From Calditrichota bacterium (GTDB lineage: Bacteria > CLD3), in contig QQUF01000016.1 of NCBI GenBank assembly GCA_008501735.1, positions 1-64,000 of the forward strand: DNA of 64,000 nucleotides, given 5' to 3'. Position numbers and translations under genes: made by a program. Numbering within the stretch: the first letter of the stretch is position 1; each line of letters begins with the position of its first letter. The notes under the pieces are model-generated. The model had not been told where the DNA came from. It saw only the letters and a program-made list of their open reading frames with translations, and did not search any database. Positions 113 to 8,870 of the stretch are shown here, piece after piece.

Positions 113-1177
113 TTAACGATTAAGTTTGATTTCTTCACCTAAACTCAAACTTGAGGTAAAATTTAATTTTTGGGCTGTTTCTTTAAAGTGAGTTGGTAGC
201 AAGTGTAAGTATCTTTCTGTCATTTCTGTTTTTGTATGCCCAAGCAACTTTGAGACTTTGTAAAAATCAATTCCTTTAAGTAGAGAATGAGTAGCAAATG
301 TATGCCTTAAAGTATGAAAATTTTTACCAGCTCCATCAATGCCTTTCTTTCTTAAATTCCTTTTTAGATACCGATAAACTCCATCTTTGTAATCTCTTTC
401 CGTCATCAGTGGATAAAGTTTTCCTTTTTCTGGTACCAATCCATAACCAAGAATGAAGATTTCCTTTAAAAGCTCCTCCAAATCCTTACAAATTGGAAAG
501 TTAAGTTGAATTTTGGTTTTTTGCATTTTAAAGGAGATGATATTTTTAGCAAAATCAATATGTTTCCTTTCTAACCGATAAATATCTGAAATTCTAAAAC
601 CAGTTAAGTACGCAAGTTTTAAAATCTTTGGTGCTTTAGGATAATCAGGAAATCGAAGAATTACTCTTAGTTCTTTTTCTGAATAAATTATTGTATCTGG
701 TTTTTCTTCTGGAAGATTTTTAAGATTCTCTATTGGAGAAATTTTTAAGTAATTATGGTCAATGCAGTACCTAAAAAATCTTTTCAGAATAGATAATTCT
801 TCATTGATTGTAGCATTCTTAACTATTTTTTGGCGTTCTTGTATGTAATCTTCAACTAACTTTCTTGTGAGCTGGTCTAAAGAATACCCGAAACTAAAAG
901 AACAAAAGAAACTAAATCTTTGCTTAGTTCTTAGTTTTGTTGATTCTGTCTTTTGAATACTTGTCTGATACTGGATAAAATCATTTCGGATTTCTTCTAA
1001 TGATTTTTCGATTTTCTCTTTTTCGTTAAGGTCGTGAAGTCCTAAAATTGCTTTTGACTTAATTTTTTGTGCAATTTTTAAAGCATCTTTTTTATTACTT
1101 GTAAAAGTGCTTTCTCTAAACCTTGCACCTTTTACTGAAAAGTTACAGTAATAAATTTTACCACGTTTAATGAGCAT
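113..1177 (-). CDS. Tyrosine recombinase / phage-type integrase
   Basis: Site-specific recombinase that would integrate and excise the adjoining element. The 354-residue protein has an N-terminal arm-binding-like stretch (residues 1-40), a SAM-like core-binding domain (about 60-150) and a catalytic domain with the full set of family residues: R195 in TGFRISD, K220/K222, H288 and R291 in HTLRHTFATH, H314 in LLGHT and the nucleophile Y323 in ERYLHL. The ATG is preceded by AAAGG. It is the outermost gene of an element whose other genes are mostly on the same strand. Only 112 bases lie beyond it, holding a short palindrome at 4-15 but no recognisable tRNA or att site. Confidence 0.93.
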   Translation of the reverse strand: MLIKRGKIYYCNFSVKGARFRESTFTSNKKDALKIAQKIKSKAILGLHDLNEKEKIEKSLEEIRNDFIQYQTSIQKTESTKLRTKQRFSFFCSFSFGYSLDQLTRKLVEDYIQERQKIVKNATINEELSILKRFFRYCIDHNYLKISPIENLKNLPEEKPDTIIYSEKELRVILRFPDYPKAPKILKLAYLTGFRISDIYRLERKHIDFAKNIISFKMQKTKIQLNFPICKDLEELLKEIFILGYGLVPEKGKLYPLMTERDYKDGVYRYLKRNLRKKGIDGAGKNFHTLRHTFATHSLLKGIDFYKVSKLLGHTKTEMTERYLHLLPTHFKETAQKLNFTSSLSLGEEIKLNR

Positions 1178-1258
1178 AGTTCTTGCCTTTCTAATAAATT
1201 AGAGTAAAAAGTTTGTCTAAAATGTTATTTGTTAGTTCTTAATTTTTCGGTCATTGAG

Positions 1259-1294
1259 AAGTTAGGAATTAGCCGAAAATCTAATTCCTAACTT
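1259..1294. repeat. 14-bp inverted repeat upstream of integrase
   Basis: Perfect 14-bp arms AAGTTAGGAATTAG (1259-1272) and CTAATTCCTAACTT (1281-1294) around an 8-base loop, between the integrase start and the stop of the next gene. There is no T-run on either side, so an operator or recombinase-accessory site is as likely as a terminator. Confidence 0.55.
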
Positions 1295-1320
1295 AATTAG
1301 AGGTAAAAGAGAATCTGCTT

Positions 1321-2184
1321 TTAAGAGTAAACATTTATGTTGTGTTCATACTTAGCAAAATGTTTGTAAAACATTCCTGTTAAATCAAGAATTGGGTAAA
1401 CAGTTTCACTTCTGCTTGTCTTAAAGCCATTCGCAGAAAATCGCCAAGAATCATAATTATTTTCAATGAAATACTCATACCCATTGCTTTCACCTTTAAT
1501 TTTTTTTAGGTGATTGTGTGAAAAATGAATAAATACTTTTTTAGCTTTTATTGGGTCAATTTTAGGAATTTTATCTGAAAAATTATCTATGGTTTCTTTG
1601 ACAATTCCTTCGATAATTTCAAGGCTAACATTTGGATAATTTTCCAATTTTTCAAATGCAAGTTGAAAAGCCTGTTCAGAGCTTAAGTTAGAGTTGATTT
1701 TCTTAGAGTAATCAATAGCAATTTTTCCAATTTGGTTAATTTTTCTCTGTTCAGAAGTTTCAGCTTCAAAAACTTCTATTTTATCTTTTAACTCGTGATT
1801 TTCTCTAAGAACCTGAATAAGAAATTCAAACAGTTTCTTAGCATTTTCAATATTCATTTCCAAACAATTTCCAATTGGTTTCTCAAGAGTATTCCCAATC
1901 AAACCTTTTAATATCTCTTTAAGATTGTGGTCTAAACCATTGTAAAACGCTTGTAGCTCTTTGGTTTTCCTTTGGTCTTGCTTCCGTTCTTCATAGGCTT
2001 CCATTAGTTCAACTGCCGTTTCACTATCATTTGTGATTACGGTTTCCTTGTTGTCATTGTAACCTGCTCTGAAAAGCAGACCTTCGTTAACTCTGTTGTC
2101 GATTGTCTTTTTATCGACTCCTAACATTTCTGCCCACTCACTTTTAGTTCGGACAATGATTTCTGTAATTTGTTCTAAGTTCAT
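1321..2184 (-). CDS. Hypothetical element protein with N-terminal HTH-like segment
   Basis: 287 residues, not assigned to a named family. Residues 10-35 (RTKSEWAEMLGVDKKTIDNR) look like a helix-turn-helix. The middle (about 65-165) is rich in K/E/L/N and probably helical or coiled-coil; the C-terminal part is mixed. The start has a strong AAGGAG eight bases upstream. It lies between the integrase and the TOPRIM protein, both on the same strand, with 14 bases to the upstream gene. A role in regulation or replication of the element is an inference from position only. Confidence 0.75.
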   Translation of the reverse strand: MNLEQITEIIVRTKSEWAEMLGVDKKTIDNRVNEGLLFRAGYNDNKETVITNDSETAVELMEAYEERKQDQRKTKELQAFYNGLDHNLKEILKGLIGNTLEKPIGNCLEMNIENAKKLFEFLIQVLRENHELKDKIEVFEAETSEQRKINQIGKIAIDYSKKINSNLSSEQAFQLAFEKLENYPNVSLEIIEGIVKETIDNFSDKIPKIDPIKAKKVFIHFSHNHLKKIKGESNGYEYFIENNYDSWRFSANGFKTSRSETVYPILDLTGMFYKHFAKYEHNINVYS

Positions 2185-2198
2185 TTTGAACTCCTTTG

Positions 2199-3161
2199 TT
2201 AAATATTGTGATTGATTAATTCTAATTCATTCCAAAAAGCTGGACTTCCATCTGGAGCAAGTATCCAATTGTAATTTTTATCTCTTTCTAAGAAGTCCGC
2301 TAAGTCTAATCCAACTGTTTCTTTTGAAGCCAAACTTTCTAAAGTGTCAGAAATTCTTACTTCGCAAAAGTTCATTAATCTTTGAGCTTTCATTTTCCAC
2401 TGTTCAAAACCTGAAACATCTGGATAAATAATTACTTTTCTTCCTTTTAAAGCTTTGCAAATTTGGGAATTCAAGTTGTGTAAACCGCCACAAGCAAGCC
2501 AAATATATTTTGGCATTACCAAGCTCATTAAAACCGCTGTTTTCTCACTTTCCACAATGGCGATAGTTTTTCTTTCTTGAGTTTGGCTAAGCTGATATTC
2601 ACCAAACAAACATTGAGCAAGGTTAAAATTTTTGAATTTTCCAAGTTTGTGAACCCAAGTAATGAATTCTCTTCTTCTCTTTCCTGTCTTAGAATCGTAA
2701 AGCATTACTTTGCCACTTCTAACTTTTCCATTCTGGTCAACTTGCCAAAAAATAGTAGCACCTTTCCAATGCTTAGAAGTTCCGATAAAGAAAAGATTCA
2801 GTAGTCTTTTTGTGGTTTCTTCCGAAAAGCAACTTTTCAAATATTGAGCGAAGTTATTTGTTTCGTAACAACTCATTGATTTTTGAACTAACTCAAAAGG
2901 AATAAAACTTGGTTCTTTTGGTGGTTCTTGTTGAGCTTGTTTTTTTACTCCTAGAATCGAGTTGATATTGGACTCTTGGGAAGAAAAAAACTCTCTTGGT
3001 GGTAAGTGATAACCGCAATTATTTATTCTATCACAAATCCCAACATTGACATTTAAATATTCTTTAGTCTCAACGTCAATGTATCTTTTAAATCTCTTTT
3101 GTTGACACTGCGGACAAAGGAACTTTTTACTCCCAGTTTCAAGTGTGAATTTATTGTTCAT
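2199..3161 (-). CDS. Zinc-finger/TOPRIM primase-like protein of the element
   Basis: Probably a replication (primase-type) protein. Residues 14-55 form a zinc-finger-like module (C16, C19, C43, C49 with H52 nearby). Residues 195-260 look like a TOPRIM fold: AIVESEKTA with E204, then IIYPDVSG with D248. This Zn-finger plus TOPRIM layout is shared by primase-like proteins of plasmids and phages, including DUF6371-type proteins (family link is from memory). I chose the ATG at 3161, which has AGAGG upstream; an extension to 3194 in the same frame lacks support and runs into the iteron region. It reads away from the putative origin, and the RepA-like ATPase lies on its other side. Confidence 0.72.
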   Translation of the reverse strand: MNNKFTLETGSKKFLCPQCQQKRFKRYIDVETKEYLNVNVGICDRINNCGYHLPPREFFSSQESNINSILGVKKQAQQEPPKEPSFIPFELVQKSMSCYETNNFAQYLKSCFSEETTKRLLNLFFIGTSKHWKGATIFWQVDQNGKVRSGKVMLYDSKTGKRRREFITWVHKLGKFKNFNLAQCLFGEYQLSQTQERKTIAIVESEKTAVLMSLVMPKYIWLACGGLHNLNSQICKALKGRKVIIYPDVSGFEQWKMKAQRLMNFCEVRISDTLESLASKETVGLDLADFLERDKNYNWILAPDGSPAFWNELELINHNI

Positions 3162-3185
3162 TTTTTTCCTCTTGGGCTGTAATAA

Positions 3186-3472
3186 TTGTACCATTTTGTA
3201 AGTGAAAAAGTGTACCGTACCACTTTGACGGTACAGTGTACCGTTTGTACCACTTTGACGGTACAGCGGTACACTTTTTAGAATTAATCAAAAAAAATAA
3301 TTTATCACTAATCGGCAAATTGCCGATTAAACCCATTAGAAATAGGTTATTCGCTATTTTAAAATTTTTTAGAAAGTATATCATTTCTGAATTTCTCCTT
3401 AACTGTACCGCTTGTACCGCTAAAACGGTACAGTTGGTACACTGTACCACCAAAGTGGTACGGTACACTTTT
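3186..3472. repeat. Iteron-like inverted-repeat block, candidate replication origin
   Basis: A 310-base gap between the TOPRIM gene and the RepA-like gene holds about 15 GTACC/GGTAC motifs. A 20-base unit GTACCACTTTGACGGTACAG occurs twice exactly (3217-3236 and 3247-3266, period 30). The left arm 3207-3242 matches the reverse complement of 3436-3471 at 34 of 36 bases. Between the arms is an AT-rich stretch with a perfect palindrome at 3309-3329 (arms TAATCGGCAA/TTGCCGATTA). Iterons, AT-rich DNA and flanking replication genes are the layout of an iteron origin; the function is inferred. Confidence 0.65.
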
Positions 3473-4535
3473 AGAAAGGTTCTTTAAACTTTGCTAAAGT
3501 CCTTTGAACTTTATTATTATTTGTTCCTAATTGCTCTGCAATTTTTCTTACCGATAAATTTGGTTCTGACTCTTTTAATGCCAAAATATTTTCTTCGAGT
3601 TGACTTCTTTCATTCTCTGTAAAATTTCTAAGATGTTCAGTTTCGCTACCAAATTCCACGAAATCAAATTTTAGAAAATTAGATGGTTTGGACACTTCAA
3701 AGACAATAACATTATCAGAATCGTAAAGAACTTCTGTTGCTCTGGCTTTAATTTGTTTCAAATATCTTAGGCTTGAATCTTTGCAACTTTTGTTTATTGC
3801 AAAGGCTGAATCACAAAAATTGATAAATTGTTTACTTCCTGCTAAACAATTTACGGTAAGAGCTTTTGTTAAATCTCTTTTTGGTGTATGCCCTAAAATC
3901 AAAATTGAGACATTTAAATCTCGAGTGAGGTTGTGGAAACGCTTAATTAATGGAAGAGCTTTCTTACCTTCTTCAAGTTGATTACCTAAATAAGTTAGGT
4001 TATCTATAATTATTATCTTTGCTTGGTAATCTTTAATGGCTAATTCTAAGTTATTAATAAGAAGTTTCTCAAAATCAATTCCTTTTTCGATTTCAGTGCT
4101 ACTAAGACGTTCCAAGTCTAATTCAGCACGAAGAAAATTATCATTAAATTCATAGTGATTTTTGTAATTCTCTGAATATCTATTTTCAAACTGCTTTGTA
4201 GATAATTCAAAATCGAAATAAATCACCTTTTGTGCTCCTGCTTCTATTTTCAAAGGTTTAATCTCTTCACCTCTGGAAATTGAGTTGGCAATTTGCACAG
4301 CTAACAAGGATTTTCCAATATTCGTATCAGCGAATAAAAAGCAAAGTTCTCCTTCGTGGAAAAATTCTCCGAATAACTTTTTGGGAATTTGCATTTGATT
4401 TGCTTCCTTTAATGTTTCAGTTGCAGTTTTTATGTTAAATATTCCACAGCTTGAATCTGATTCTCTGTCAAATTTTTCAGACTCTCTATTTACTTTTTGG
4501 AGTATTTCTGAATTGCTAACATTGTTGTTTTTCAT
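3471..4535 (-). CDS. RepA-like AAA ATPase (replicative helicase type)
   Basis: A RecA-fold ATPase of the plasmid RepA/AAA_25 type, likely the helicase or origin-binding motor of the element. Walker A is FADTNIGKS (residues 68-76, with K75), followed by a Walker B-like run IIIIDNLTYLG and a sensor-like LILGHTPKR. The last 40 residues (LSVRKIAEQLGTNNNKVQRT) form a winged-HTH-like segment. The 354-residue length fits the family. The start overlaps the stop of a tiny upstream ORF by four bases (ATGA), so translation is probably coupled. Its 3' end touches the iteron block. Confidence 0.85.
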   Translation of the reverse strand: MKNNNVSNSEILQKVNRESEKFDRESDSSCGIFNIKTATETLKEANQMQIPKKLFGEFFHEGELCFLFADTNIGKSLLAVQIANSISRGEEIKPLKIEAGAQKVIYFDFELSTKQFENRYSENYKNHYEFNDNFLRAELDLERLSSTEIEKGIDFEKLLINNLELAIKDYQAKIIIIDNLTYLGNQLEEGKKALPLIKRFHNLTRDLNVSILILGHTPKRDLTKALTVNCLAGSKQFINFCDSAFAINKSCKDSSLRYLKQIKARATEVLYDSDNVIVFEVSKPSNFLKFDFVEFGSETEHLRNFTENERSQLEENILALKESEPNLSVRKIAEQLGTNNNKVQRTLAKFKEPF

Positions 4536-4612
4536 TATCTTTTACCAAATTGAATGAGTGTTTCAAAGGTTTCAGTCTCGTCACAGACTGCTTTGAATTG
4601 ATTATCTTTCAT
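4535..4612 (-). CDS. 25-residue coupled small ORF
   Basis: A small ORF beginning MKDNQFKAVC, with AAAGG eight bases before its ATG. It overlaps the stop of the upstream Xis-like gene by 11 bases and its own stop overlaps the RepA start (ATGA). The overlaps on both sides and a good ribosome site argue for real translation, possibly only to couple RepA synthesis. The longer reading of this frame (to 4717) runs inside the upstream gene and has less support. No family is recognised. Confidence 0.45.
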   Translation of the reverse strand: MKDNQFKAVCDETETFETLIQFGKR

Positions 4613-4850
4613 CACGTTTGCCTTTTTTAAAACGTGGTAAGAAATTTTGCCTTTTACCTCTATTTTTTGGTAAAGGGCTTTTTTGTTTCTGATTACTGTT
4701 GAAAGCCCAAAGGTCAATCATTGAGCTTTGATTCCCTCTTCCTCTTGGATATTTGACTTTGTTGTTGTACAAAGTTCTAATTGGGATTCCTGTCATTTCA
4801 CTAAACCTGCTTAGCGTTACAAATCTTACTTCACTAATTAAATTGTTCAT
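4602..4850 (-). CDS. Small HTH protein, excisionase/AlpA-like
   Basis: 82 residues. The N-terminal half (FVTLSRFSEMTGIPIRTLYN) resembles the winged-helix HTH of MerR/AlpA/Xis-type proteins, followed by a basic tail (KNRGKRQ, KKGKRDER). It overlaps the upstream HTH gene by 17 bases and sits just before the replication genes. A role as excisionase or activator of the element is plausible from size and place but is not shown. Confidence 0.6.
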   Translation of the reverse strand: MNNLISEVRFVTLSRFSEMTGIPIRTLYNNKVKYPRGRGNQSSMIDLWAFNSNQKQKSPLPKNRGKRQNFLPRFKKGKRDER

Positions 4851-5034
4851 TTTTTAAAATTCCTTTGGGTTTAATTTCTAAAAGTTGATTCATTCTTTCA
4901 ATTTCAAGTTTGTTAAAAGTTCCACGTCGGAGTTTGTTGGTAAAGTTTTGTGGACTTATTCCAAGTTCCTCTGCAATAGCTTTTTGCAATAATTTTTTTG
5001 CTTTAATTTGTTGTTTTAATCTTGGAATTATCAT
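4834..5034 (-). CDS. Cro/C1-type HTH protein
   Basis: 66 residues with a Cro/C1-like helix-turn-helix (KLLQKAIAEELGISPQNFTN, about residues 14-33). It is the first gene of the leftward replication operon and is divergent from the repressor that starts at 5128, as in lambda-type or SaPI-type switches. Its probable role is early regulation of the switch. Confidence 0.68.
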   Translation of the reverse strand: MIIPRLKQQIKAKKLLQKAIAEELGISPQNFTNKLRRGTFNKLEIERMNQLLEIKPKGILKNEQFN

Positions 5035-5080
5035 TTTTTATTACCTTTCAATTAAGATTAAATTTGATTATTGGTTGCTA

Positions 5081-5107
5081 TACTATTAAATTACAAGAAA
5101 AATAGTA
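5081..5107. promoter_or_regulatory. Candidate operator between divergent regulators
   Basis: TACTATT (5081-5087) and AATAGTA (5101-5107) form a 7-bp inverted repeat in the AT-rich gap between the Cro-like gene (start 5034) and the repressor (start 5128). Position suggests a repressor operator; no consensus is known to compare with. Confidence 0.35.
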
Positions 5108-5127
5108 AAAATAAATTATGGTGTAAA

Positions 5128-5745
5128 ATGAAAAATCAAAAAGATGAAAAAAATAATTTAAAGGAGTTTGGAAAACGTGTTGGAGAAGTATTTGAATATT
5201 TCAAAAAATCAAAAGATATTACTCAAATAGAGTTTTGTAAGCAGTTTGAGTATAATGTTACAAACTTCAAAAAACTAATAAATGGTGATATTGGTCTAAA
5301 ATTTGAGAATATTTTAAAGTTCTTAGATGTATTTGGAGTCAATTCAGATTGGTTACTAAAAGGCAAGGGAAGTATGTTTTCAGAGGTAGCCTTATATAAA
5401 AAAAGCACTTCAATTTCGATAGTTGGTGAAGAAATAAACCAAATTATCTCTTCAAAAGGTTTCTTTGCTCTATGTCGTGGTGGAGGAAGGAAATACATTT
5501 ATCCTATAATTCATTGGGCTTTGAAAACTTTTGATTATACCACTAGTGGAACTGCTTTTACGCAAGAAGGGCAAAAAGTAGTTGGGTATGTAGATATTGG
5601 GAATGGAGAATTACTTCCTTGTGATGAATTAGAGGAATTTATTTGTTACTTGGCGAAAAGTGATTTTGAAGAACAAGAGTTAGAGGAATTGTTAAGAAAA
5701 CGTCGAAATAATATTAAAAATTTCTTTAGTGAAGACACAAATTAG
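5128..5745 (+). CDS. CI-like HTH transcriptional repressor
   Basis: 205 residues from the ATG at 5128; a TTG 57 bases further upstream would place the start inside the operator region and is less likely. An HTH lies near residues 25-75 (ITQIEFCKQFEYNVTNFKKL ... VNSDWLLKGKG), the usual arrangement of phage CI-type repressors. The C-terminal half shows no Ser/Lys self-cleavage motifs that I can recognise, so it is not an obvious S24 LexA-like protein. It is divergent from the element's replication operon and is the only rightward gene of the island. Its probable role is to hold the element silent. Confidence 0.75.
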   Translation: MKNQKDEKNNLKEFGKRVGEVFEYFKKSKDITQIEFCKQFEYNVTNFKKLINGDIGLKFENILKFLDVFGVNSDWLLKGKGSMFSEVALYKKSTSISIVGEEINQIISSKGFFALCRGGGRKYIYPIIHWALKTFDYTTSGTAFTQEGQKVVGYVDIGNGELLPCDELEEFICYLAKSDFEEQELEELLRKRRNNIKNFFSEDTN

Positions 5746-5769
5746 ACACACAAAATAGAAAAATAGCGT

Positions 5770-5822
5770 GGGAATATCTTTAAACTAACAAAACAAGATA
5801 TTCCCTCTCTCTCCGTTTTTTT
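5770..5822 (+). terminator. Terminator-like hairpin after the repressor
   Basis: Perfect 11-bp arms GGGAATATCTT (5770-5780) and AAGATATTCCC (5795-5805) with a 14-base loop, followed about ten bases later by a T7 run. It ends the repressor transcript; the large loop and the distance to the T-run make it a weak version. Confidence 0.55.
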
Positions 5823-5960
5823 GTTTTTAACAAATATTTAAAATCCATAAACTTTACAGAATGATTAGAGCAGGAGAAATTAAAGGGAAAGATTAGGCTT
5901 CGAGTATTTCATTGATGAAATGGAAATTGAAGCTATTAGTAGGAAAAAGTTTGAGTGAGG

Positions 5961-7694
5961 TTAAAATGGTAACCAAGGGTTCTTGTTTTCCTCAATCTTA
6001 AATAATTTATCTTTTTGTGATAATTTAAGAGTAAAATACTTTTCATCATTTAAATCATTTGGAAGTTTATCTTTAAGAATTGATGCAATAAATTGAATTT
6101 TTTCTTTATTAACGAGTTCAGAAATTTTCACCAATTGATTACCGTGCATTAGCTCCTTTTTATCGTTTAAAATAAAGTGCATACAAGGAATATTCTCACT
6201 ATCGGCAAAAAGTGTATAAGCAATATCAAAACAAGATATTTCACCTTGTTTCTTACCAGAGCTAAAATTTGTATTAAATGCACTAAATTTATATAATTTT
6301 TGCCCCTTCTTATTAGTTTCTATATCATATTTTAGAGCATATTGCTCTCCATACAATAAATCTGAAGTATAGGAAAAGTGTCGATTAAATTTATTTAACT
6401 GTAACTTAACTTTTGCTTCAAACTCATCAGAAAAGAGTTCAGTATCAATTAATCTTAATTCTTCATTATAAGCTTTTAAGTTATTTTCAACTTCTTCTAT
6501 TTGATGAATTGTATTTTCATATTCACCTTTGTTTTTAAACTTTTCATTAAGTTCAGTAATTATTTTCTCAAGTGTTTCAAAAGAATCACTTTTCGAAATT
6601 ACCTTCGAATATTCAACTTCTTTTTCAAGTAACTCATTTAATACTTTGCCCTTATTTTCTATTTCCTTTGATAAAACTGGGAGTTCTTTAGAAATAAAAT
6701 TAGCTTTTTCTTGTATCATTTGATTATGGTACTGCACCATATCTTCGAATGATTTTTGCATATCAGTCAAATTGACTTTAACTTGGTTATAAATTGCTCG
6801 TAATTGCTGAAAATCTATATCTGAAGCACTAGATTGTAATTCTTCTTGCATTTTAAGGATTAAATTTTTTCTTAAGTTTAAATTGCTTAGTTGAGAACTA
6901 AGTGAATTTAGTTGGTATTTAACTTGGTTTAGTTTTTGTAAATCTTTTTCGAAATGGTCATTAATATTTAAGTTCGCTTTTTTCAATTGCAATTTCTCTA
7001 TTTCTCTATCAATTATAGATAATGCAACTTCATAGGCAGATTTGGTTTGCACTTTTTCCAAACGGTTTTTAAAAGTAGTCTCTAATTTAATCTTTTGTAA
7101 AATAGCTTGTTTATCATCTCCTTTAGTAAAATTACATCCTAGAAGAAATAAATATAAAGTTTCATATTCCTCAAGAGCAGTATATTCATTAAGTGTTTTA
7201 AGAGTATTGTTTAGACTAGTATCTTTGTAACGTATATTATGTGAAATTATTTGTTTAAAAGTAGGTTTCGATGATTTATGATTAGGAAAAAATAATTCTA
7301 CTAATCTGTTTTCAAATTCATCTTCAGTATATTTACGTCCATCAATACTTAATATTTTTCTTTTACGGAATAAAAAATTACGCTCAATTACATATGTCTT
7401 TGCATTCTCATTATAAAGATTCTCAGAAATTTCTAAAGAAATTATTACTTCATTATTAACTAAGTAGTCTTTGACAAGTTTATAGAATTGCTTTTTATCT
7501 TCGGGGTCTTCATAAATTATTTTTTTGTCTGCTCCAAAACAAAAATCAATCAATTTCAATACAGTAGTTTTTCCGACATTATTTCCTGTAATCTGACCTT
7601 CACTTTCATCTACAATAAGATTAAGTCCCATATGAAAATCAATTTGTCGAATTACTTTTGTAGGAGTCAAAATTTTAAGTGATTTTAAGAACAT
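5961..7694 (-). CDS. ABC-3C system ATPase, DUF2326/SMC-like
   Basis: 577-residue ABC-type ATPase of the RecN/SMC style. Walker A is GNNVGKTT (residues 37-44) near the N terminus. Residues 190-420 are mostly heptad-like coiled coil. The C-terminal ABC half contains SSGKKQGEISCFDIAYTLF (signature-like plus helix) and CMHFILNDKKELMHGNQL, which matches the DUF2326 style of ABC-three-component ATPases. In these systems the ATPase is thought to sense an invader and license an effector. It is the last gene of the operon and overlaps the middle component by ten bases. Confidence 0.85.
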   Translation of the reverse strand: MFLKSLKILTPTKVIRQIDFHMGLNLIVDESEGQITGNNVGKTTVLKLIDFCFGADKKIIYEDPEDKKQFYKLVKDYLVNNEVIISLEISENLYNENAKTYVIERNFLFRKRKILSIDGRKYTEDEFENRLVELFFPNHKSSKPTFKQIISHNIRYKDTSLNNTLKTLNEYTALEEYETLYLFLLGCNFTKGDDKQAILQKIKLETTFKNRLEKVQTKSAYEVALSIIDREIEKLQLKKANLNINDHFEKDLQKLNQVKYQLNSLSSQLSNLNLRKNLILKMQEELQSSASDIDFQQLRAIYNQVKVNLTDMQKSFEDMVQYHNQMIQEKANFISKELPVLSKEIENKGKVLNELLEKEVEYSKVISKSDSFETLEKIITELNEKFKNKGEYENTIHQIEEVENNLKAYNEELRLIDTELFSDEFEAKVKLQLNKFNRHFSYTSDLLYGEQYALKYDIETNKKGQKLYKFSAFNTNFSSGKKQGEISCFDIAYTLFADSENIPCMHFILNDKKELMHGNQLVKISELVNKEKIQFIASILKDKLPNDLNDEKYFTLKLSQKDKLFKIEENKNPWLPF

Positions 7695-7909
7695 AACTCT
7701 ACCTTGTTATTCTTTACTTCTGCTGCATTGATTAAATAAAGCCAATCAAGACATAAAACAAACAAAGGAAAAGAGATATTTCGTATTTGGACAATTCTTT
7801 CATAAAGCTCCAATAATTCAACATTATCTTCATTTTGAAGAAGCTGTAAAACTAAAGCTCCATTATAATAAATACTATTTTCAGGATGAATATTATCTGG
7901 AAGTAACAT
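7685..7909 (-). CDS. ABC-3C middle component (short type)
   Basis: 74 residues from the ATG at 7909, preceded by AAGGA at seven bases. A longer start at 7963 would overlap the SMEK gene by 71 bases and lacks this site. The opening MLLPDNIHPENSIYYNGAL followed by a leucine-rich helical body is typical of the very short middle components (MC6-like, from memory) that link an ABC-3C ATPase to its effector. It overlaps the SMEK gene by 17 bases and the ATPase by ten, so all three are probably translationally coupled. Confidence 0.72.
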   Translation of the reverse strand: MLLPDNIHPENSIYYNGALVLQLLQNEDNVELLELYERIVQIRNISFPLFVLCLDWLYLINAAEVKNNKVELCS

Positions 7910-8870
7910 ATTTATATCCTTCAGGGTTTTCAAAAATTTTACATCTAATAAAGGCATCAACAACTAAAATATCAACGGACAATTCTAATTCATCTATTGG
8001 AATATTTGTAAAATTCAAACTTTCCAATACTATACTCATAACTGATTCAGTTACTGCAAAAAAAATCTGATCAGCACTTTTGTTTTGGTCAATTGTGAGT
8101 TTCAAATATATATTGCTAATTGCTCCAAGGACTGATTGACTTTTGTTTTTTCCAAGTTTGTCAAATTCAGAGTATTTTTCATCTACTCTTGTCGAATGTA
8201 AAGAATAGAATTCAATAACTTTCTTAGCAGCTACCAAATTGTTAAAATCTATCTTTTTTTCTATATCAAAACTTTTATCTCTTTTGGTAGCATTTGAATT
8301 GCTCCAATCTTCTTCGGCTAAAATATTAATAATTGTAGCTAAATTCGAATCTAATTTTACATAATCAGTTTCTTTACCTAATTCTACTTTTATAAATTGA
8401 TAAATTATTTTTACATCAGGAGTTGTTTTGCTAAGAATTTTTTGTAGAATAGATTTTATATCGTGAATATCTTTCGATGGATTAAAATTAATATTGTGAG
8501 GATTTTGAAATGTTTTACTTCTTAAGTTTGAAGCATCTTTGGCTATGGAAATAAAATTAAAAGTATAATCTGGGTAATTTTGAATAATTTCTTTTTGCAA
8601 TGCTGTTTCAATTTTTTCTTTTGTACAAGTAGCTGAGACTTGAATAACAACTTTATCTTTGTGGTCAATTAAATCGATTGCTGGGGCATTTGCAATTTCA
8701 TCATTAAGATTCTTTAGTTCATATCCATATACCAAATTTAAAAAATCACGATAAAAATATTCAGAATAAGTATGTAAATCTAGTATATGCAATTTCCCAT
8801 TTGTTTCGGTAATGCGAGATAAATTATGCAAATGATTGTTTATGTAGTTGAAGTATAACTGCTTATTCAT
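7893..8870 (-). CDS. SMEK-domain protein, putative ABC-3C effector
   Basis: 325 residues. Residues 1-170 carry the conserved SMEK-domain blocks: LDLHTYSEYFYRDFLNLVYG, NAPAIDLIDHKDKVVIQVSA, TKEKIE and FISIAKDASNLRSKTFQNPH. The D66/D69 ... VVIQVSA arrangement recalls the core of restriction-type nucleases, but that is only an inference. The C-terminal half is alpha/beta with no known match. It is the first gene of the three-gene operon. SMEK proteins are described as components of ABC-3C conflict systems in comparative work by the Aravind group. Confidence 0.82.
   Translation of the reverse strand: MNKQLYFNYINNHLHNLSRITETNGKLHILDLHTYSEYFYRDFLNLVYGYELKNLNDEIANAPAIDLIDHKDKVVIQVSATCTKEKIETALQKEIIQNYPDYTFNFISIAKDASNLRSKTFQNPHNINFNPSKDIHDIKSILQKILSKTTPDVKIIYQFIKVELGKETDYVKLDSNLATIINILAEEDWSNSNATKRDKSFDIEKKIDFNNLVAAKKVIEFYSLHSTRVDEKYSEFDKLGKNKSQSVLGAISNIYLKLTIDQNKSADQIFFAVTESVMSIVLESLNFTNIPIDELELSVDILVVDAFIRCKIFENPEGYKYVTSR

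Follow-up and report, generated by a model that had tools for sequence, protein, structure and literature searches.

A GTACC iteron array beside a RecA-fold helicase gene as the probable replicator of an integrated mobile element

The window (the whole stretch of DNA analysed, 64,000 nucleotides) contains at positions 3186-3472 a dense array of GTACC/GGTAC sites, and the question raised by this locus is what function such an array serves in the element that carries it. An earlier note had described it as an iteron origin with its own Rep-binding rules, and this description is well supported comparatively, through the placement of the array, the inverted arrays of relatives, the covariation of array word and HTH, and the small circles on which the module is found. 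The array probably serves an integrated mobile element as its replicator (oriV) and would be bound by the adjacent helicase's own HTH. The maintenance of excised integrative elements was called unexplored in a review of IMEs (PMC5704250).

The mobile element and the anatomy of the array

The region is an integrated mobile element carrying integrase and ABC-3C defence genes, with the following gene order.

113-1177, minus strand: tyrosine integrase (domain matches)
1321-2184, minus strand: protein with a weak terminase-small-subunit (TerS)/MerR-like HTH domain match
2199-3164, minus strand: zinc-ribbon and DUF6371 (PG0870-related) protein, likely a Toprim-type primase judging by domain matches
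3471-4535, minus strand: helicase-type RecA-fold ATPase (AAA_25/DnaB_C) with C-terminal HTH, the proposed initiator (domains, fold and covariation)
4602-4850, minus strand: small Cox/excisionase-like protein (weak match)
5128-5745, plus strand: CI-like repressor (domain match)
5961-8870, minus strand: ABC-3C/Lamassu-like defence cargo (DUF2326 ATPase, MC6, SMEK-CTD10; domain matches)

The tyrosine integrase and the excisionase (a weak match) are traits of integrative elements, and the defence cargo also matches LmuB and PDC-M68. No att repeat of at least 10 bases was found between the element junctions, and a tRNA-based attachment site was rejected on this ground and because the left junction has no tRNA. 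The start of the window is also the end of a contig, and its first 147 bases overlap contig C9 (G000:C9:9412-9558). Since the contig starts at the left end of the element and overlaps C9 with one mismatch, C9 is taken to be the left flank. The single mismatch is G/T at position 21, and the variant base may derive from a second molecule, e.g., an excised circle.

Nine element proteins, from ORFs of 80 aa or more at 113-8870, were scanned and included no mobilization protein or relaxase, and the element proteins scanned gave no ParB, no Pfam match to a Rep_3 winged-helix initiator and no match to a RepC-like protein. The presence of an integrase and an excisionase-like protein would suit an accessory site for some other process, such as an oriT, a partition site or Int/Xis arm-type sites. 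We consider this highly improbable given that relaxase and ParB are missing from the element proteins, that the integrase lies 2 kb away, and that, as described below, the array word co-varies with the helicase HTH and the arrays stay by the helicase despite changes of neighbours.

As the earlier note had stated, the array lies between two replication-type genes, with the minus-strand ORFs 2199-3164 and 3471-4535 on either side; it starts at the helicase stop codon, directly 3' of the helicase gene. Its features are as follows.

3188-3192, minus strand: lone GGTAC site immediately ahead of the start codon of the primase-like gene (site scan)
3206-3265, plus strand: left arm of the large inverted repeat
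3212-3234, no strand: outer module of 3 sites, GTACC-GTACC-N8-GGTAC (site scan)
3238-3272, no strand: inner module of 4 sites, GTACC..GTACC-N8-GGTAC..GGTAC (site scan)
3273-3404, no strand: A+T-rich spacer by composition, proposed unwinding region
3309-3329, no strand: 21-nt palindrome TAATCGGCAAATTGCCGATTA, unique in the genome
3405-3440, no strand: inner module of 4 sites (site scan)
3413-3472, minus strand: right arm of the large inverted repeat
3444-3466, no strand: outer module of 3 sites, GTACC-N8-GGTAC-GGTAC (site scan)

All fifteen GTACC/GGTAC motifs counted earlier were found again within 3188-3466, out of 33 across the 64-kb window, against an expectation of 0.128 sites per 287 bp (Poisson P ~1e-26). 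The other repeat features of the earlier note were likewise reproduced: exact copies of the 20-base unit GTACCACTTTGACGGTACAG start at 3217 and 3247 with a 30-bp spacing (a third copy at 3414 matches at 80%), the best 36-nt inverted arms (3207-3242 and 3436-3471) match at 34/36 positions, and the central palindrome has one mismatch. Extended to 60 nt, the inverted arms (3206-3265 and 3413-3472) match at 51/60 positions. The sites are ordered as four convergent modules mirrored about the spacer (3+4, a 121-bp spacer, 4+3), with the outermost sites abutting in the mirror-symmetric modules, and the dyad GTACCN8GGTAC is present in 4 copies. The spacer, measured at 3280-3400, is 76% A+T compared with 71% for the whole element, which is only mildly unusual since 11% of element windows are equally A+T-rich. 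No DnaA box was found in the spacer, and an origin of the DnaA-box kind was rejected. Neither the dyad nor the palindrome occurs a second time in the 4.14-Mb assembly, so the reading as a dispersed chromosomal repeat, which the earlier note had set against an origin, is excluded for this genome.

The single strand of the array has a very strong predicted fold (-70.1 kcal/mol versus -27.7 for shuffles, z -12.7, with DNA parameters), as would be expected if the array acted as RNA, with a transcript hairpin attenuating or processing the helicase-primase message. Such a role is very doubtful, since no Rfam family was matched, the arms are ~150 nt apart here, relatives keep the inverted pattern while, inside each locus, a single word is conserved from copy to copy, and this word goes with the HTH of a protein that binds DNA.

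Arrays beside related helicases and on small circles

The helicase core is of the RecA-fold (AAA_25/DnaB_C) and not of the D5/SaPI-Rep type. No PDB chain matched the helicase by sequence, and its structure model (pLDDT 76, moderate confidence) has fold matches to RadA, DnaB and KaiC in the PDB. The HTH comprises residues 307-351, with the predicted recognition helix at 340-351. The closest relatives are 47-53% identical, and relatives were found in Bacteroidota, Acidobacteriota, small IMG/VR contigs and Bacteroides plasmids. Homologues were present in 2/9 genomes of the source phylum examined, in 14/395 genomes of the phylum of G009 (Mucilaginibacter, Bacteroidota), in 80/400 genomes of the order containing G009, in 9/297 genomes of the phylum of G011 (an Acidobacteria MAG) and in 8/291 genomes of a further order. 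With the window helicase alone as query no viral relatives were obtained, and viral relatives were recovered with a helicase profile search.

The region after the HTH of these relatives was scanned for inverted arrays with no preset word, significance being judged against shuffles. A significant inverted array was found in 53/164 loci; significant arrays occurred in 5/168 and 4/168 control windows inside the helicase gene and in 11/163 and 4/163 control windows further downstream (2-7% in the four controls). No clear array follows the gene in about two-thirds of the fetched relatives, mostly Sphingobacteriales and Acidobacteriota paralogues, and a small number of the arrays with high scores are ordinary tandem repeats. 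In many relatives a short-word array with a ~9-bp period and convergent halves stands just past the HTH-coding end, and in the Tn4555-like and L008 loci it lies within the 3' end of the helicase reading frame. Each array family has its own word: GTACC in the window element, TGTAAC (GTAAC) in L015 and L100-L102, GTTCAC in L010-L012, L016 and L103-L105, GGAAC in L008 and L037, TGTCCC (GTCCC) in the Tn4555-like loci, TGTTTC (GTTTC) in L052-L055, and TGTGCC in L035 and L038. The earlier note had proposed a search for the unit in related elements; these have inverted arrays at the same place, with words other than GTACC.

Three loci (L021, L023 and L108) have two convergent TGTCCC arrays ~130 bp apart, which is the two-array layout of the window. 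At 6999-7150 of L012 an expanded GCGTTCATA run precedes the GTTCAC/GTGAAC array; it is absent in the close relative L011 and is apparently a recent iteron expansion.

Five IMG/VR contigs of 6.1-9.7 kb with helicase and array (L203, L206-L209) are probably circular, since they have terminal repeats of 96-127 nt, and an integrase was present in all four whose integrase candidate was scanned (L203, L207, L208, L209). The arrays remain beside the helicase where the neighbouring genes change: in the circular L208 (9.7 kb) and L209 (6.1 kb) a BT4734-like/PriCT_2 primase replaces DUF6371, and the helicase and a GTTCAC array are kept. The helicase-array module is also present on CP103138, a 10,057-bp circular Bacteroides plasmid record, in which the helicase and DUF6371 genes are the only recognisable replication genes; its gene order is the published order of Tn4555 (PMC13183296). 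No other recognised initiator was found on the multi-kilobase small circles. Clear terminase small subunits in L010, L208 and L210 suggest that some relatives are phage satellites. Those of L010 and L210 are encoded at the place corresponding to 1321-2184 of the window.

Covariation of the array word with the recognition helix

The relationship between word and HTH was evaluated on 38 loci with significant inverted arrays and helicase cores less than 90% identical, which are not fully independent of one another. A word was common to 16/17 pairs with recognition helices at least 80% identical and to 8/581 pairs with helices less than 50% identical. When the helicase cores were less than 50% identical, a word was still common to 9/46 pairs with similar helices versus 3/427 with dissimilar ones (Fisher 6e-8), and when the cores were at least 60% identical and the helices different, it was common to 0/31 pairs. 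The partial Mantel correlation of word and helix given the core was 0.44 (p 0.0002, the lowest value that 5000 permutations allow). The strongest per-position associations were at HTH positions -9, -8, -5, -4 and -3, with smaller values outside the recognition helix at -33 and -20; positions -9 to -3 correspond here to residues 340-346, inside the recognition helix predicted by the model. The helix of the window type is TNNNKVQRTL, paired with GTACC, and that of the L015 type is ISHMKVSRVL, paired with GTAAC. Compared across sequences, these associations indicate that the helicase tail would read the repeats by a letter-by-letter code.

The HTH-coding end and the array are only tens of bases apart, and the covariation could in principle reflect co-exchange of neighbours by recombination, without direct contact. 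This explanation is improbable, as the signal falls mainly on recognition-helix positions rather than on the whole HTH, and the equally close protein downstream of the array had a partial Mantel value of 0.007 given the core (0.10, p 0.08, with the helix also held). Linkage alone is therefore a poor explanation.

The main rival is an operator-only function, in which the array would serve the helicase HTH or another regulator of the element in controlling the primase gene and downstream operon, with replication elsewhere. The array is directly upstream of the primase-like gene, the HTH covariation would look identical, and iteron initiators are often autorepressors. We nevertheless regard an operator as unlikely. 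The Tn4555-like and L008 arrays sit inside the 3' end of a reading frame, the multi-kilobase circles lack another recognised initiator, two mirrored halves of 3+4 sites flanking a spacer would be an elaborate design for an operator, and what SaPI and SCC have at this position is an origin or an origin-like site.

Proposed replicator function and comparison with known systems

For the array as replicator, the following steps are inferred. After excision, the C-terminal HTH of the helicase would bind the GTACC sites, and each convergent module would seat helicase subunits head to head. With two mirrored halves, one helicase ring would be placed on each side of the spacer. Strand opening would follow in this A+T-rich DNA, with priming by the DUF6371 primase-like protein, and replication may proceed in both directions. 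The earlier note had linked the inverted symmetry to extrusion or a bidirectional start; convergent binding sites for two helicase assemblies could explain it as well.

A specific replicator and initiator pair is thereby proposed for an excised integrative element, and the replicator reading also predicts where Tn4555, which carries cfxA resistance, has its origin. The word-helix pairs, dozens in number, would amount to a natural code of protein-DNA recognition that can be tested directly in vitro. For a wider proposal the chances appear evenly balanced. In this proposal, self-recognising RecA-fold initiator helicases form a class that is widespread and so far undescribed; the HTH fused to each helicase would read a five-base word in the inverted arrays next to the helicase gene, and exchanges of a few recognition-helix residues would have given rise to many replicator specificities that exclude one another, spread over defence-carrying islands, phage-satellite-like circles and IMEs (Tn4555). 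No description of such a self-reading RecA-fold helicase and array was found in the literature searched, which lay mostly outside subscription journals.

Tn4555 and the cfxA plasmids of Bacteroides share with the element a homologous helicase (43% identical), the DUF6371 partner, an integrase, an excisionase and an inverted array (TGTCCC there) at the helicase 3' end, but differ in having mobilization and cfxA genes and the GTCCC word within the helicase reading frame. Phage P4 is a satellite whose own alpha helicase-primase reads short iterons at ori/crr, with the type I word TGTTCACC. The GTTCAC arrays of L010-L016 presumably resemble this word, whereas alpha is a single large primase-helicase. 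In IncQ/RSF1010, RepA is a plasmid RecA-type hexameric helicase, comparable to the RecA-fold helicase of the element. Iterons, an A+T-rich region and palindromes at the origin are further common features (PMC7557826), but in IncQ a separate RepC reads ~20-bp iterons, while here RepC is absent, the reader is apparently fused to the helicase, and the repeated unit is a word of 5-6 nt in convergent modules.

There is experimental precedent in SaPI Rep and SCC Cch2, each of which uses a C-terminal domain to read iterons located 3' of the gene that encodes it (PMC7581432), and PICI origins have two iteron sets on either side of an A+T-rich region (PMC6092414). The element resembles these systems in its proposed initiator helicase with a C-terminal DNA-binding domain, its probable origin directly 3' of that gene, its short iterons (5-nt in SCC), the adjacent primase gene and the integrative lifestyle, and its two 7-site halves around a 76% A+T spacer recall SaPI and PICI, as do L021 and L023. 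In contrast, their helicases are of the D5/SaPI-Rep type, while here a RecA-fold AAA_25/DnaB_C core is paired with a DUF6371 primase-like protein in hosts that are mainly Bacteroidota. As the core is RecA-fold, SaPI, PICI and SCC are functional precedents and not homologues, and the design of a helicase reading its own downstream origin is suggested to have arisen on two unrelated helicase folds. What appears to be new here is that this self-reading design with downstream iterons is built on another helicase fold and uses a word that is legible and can change.
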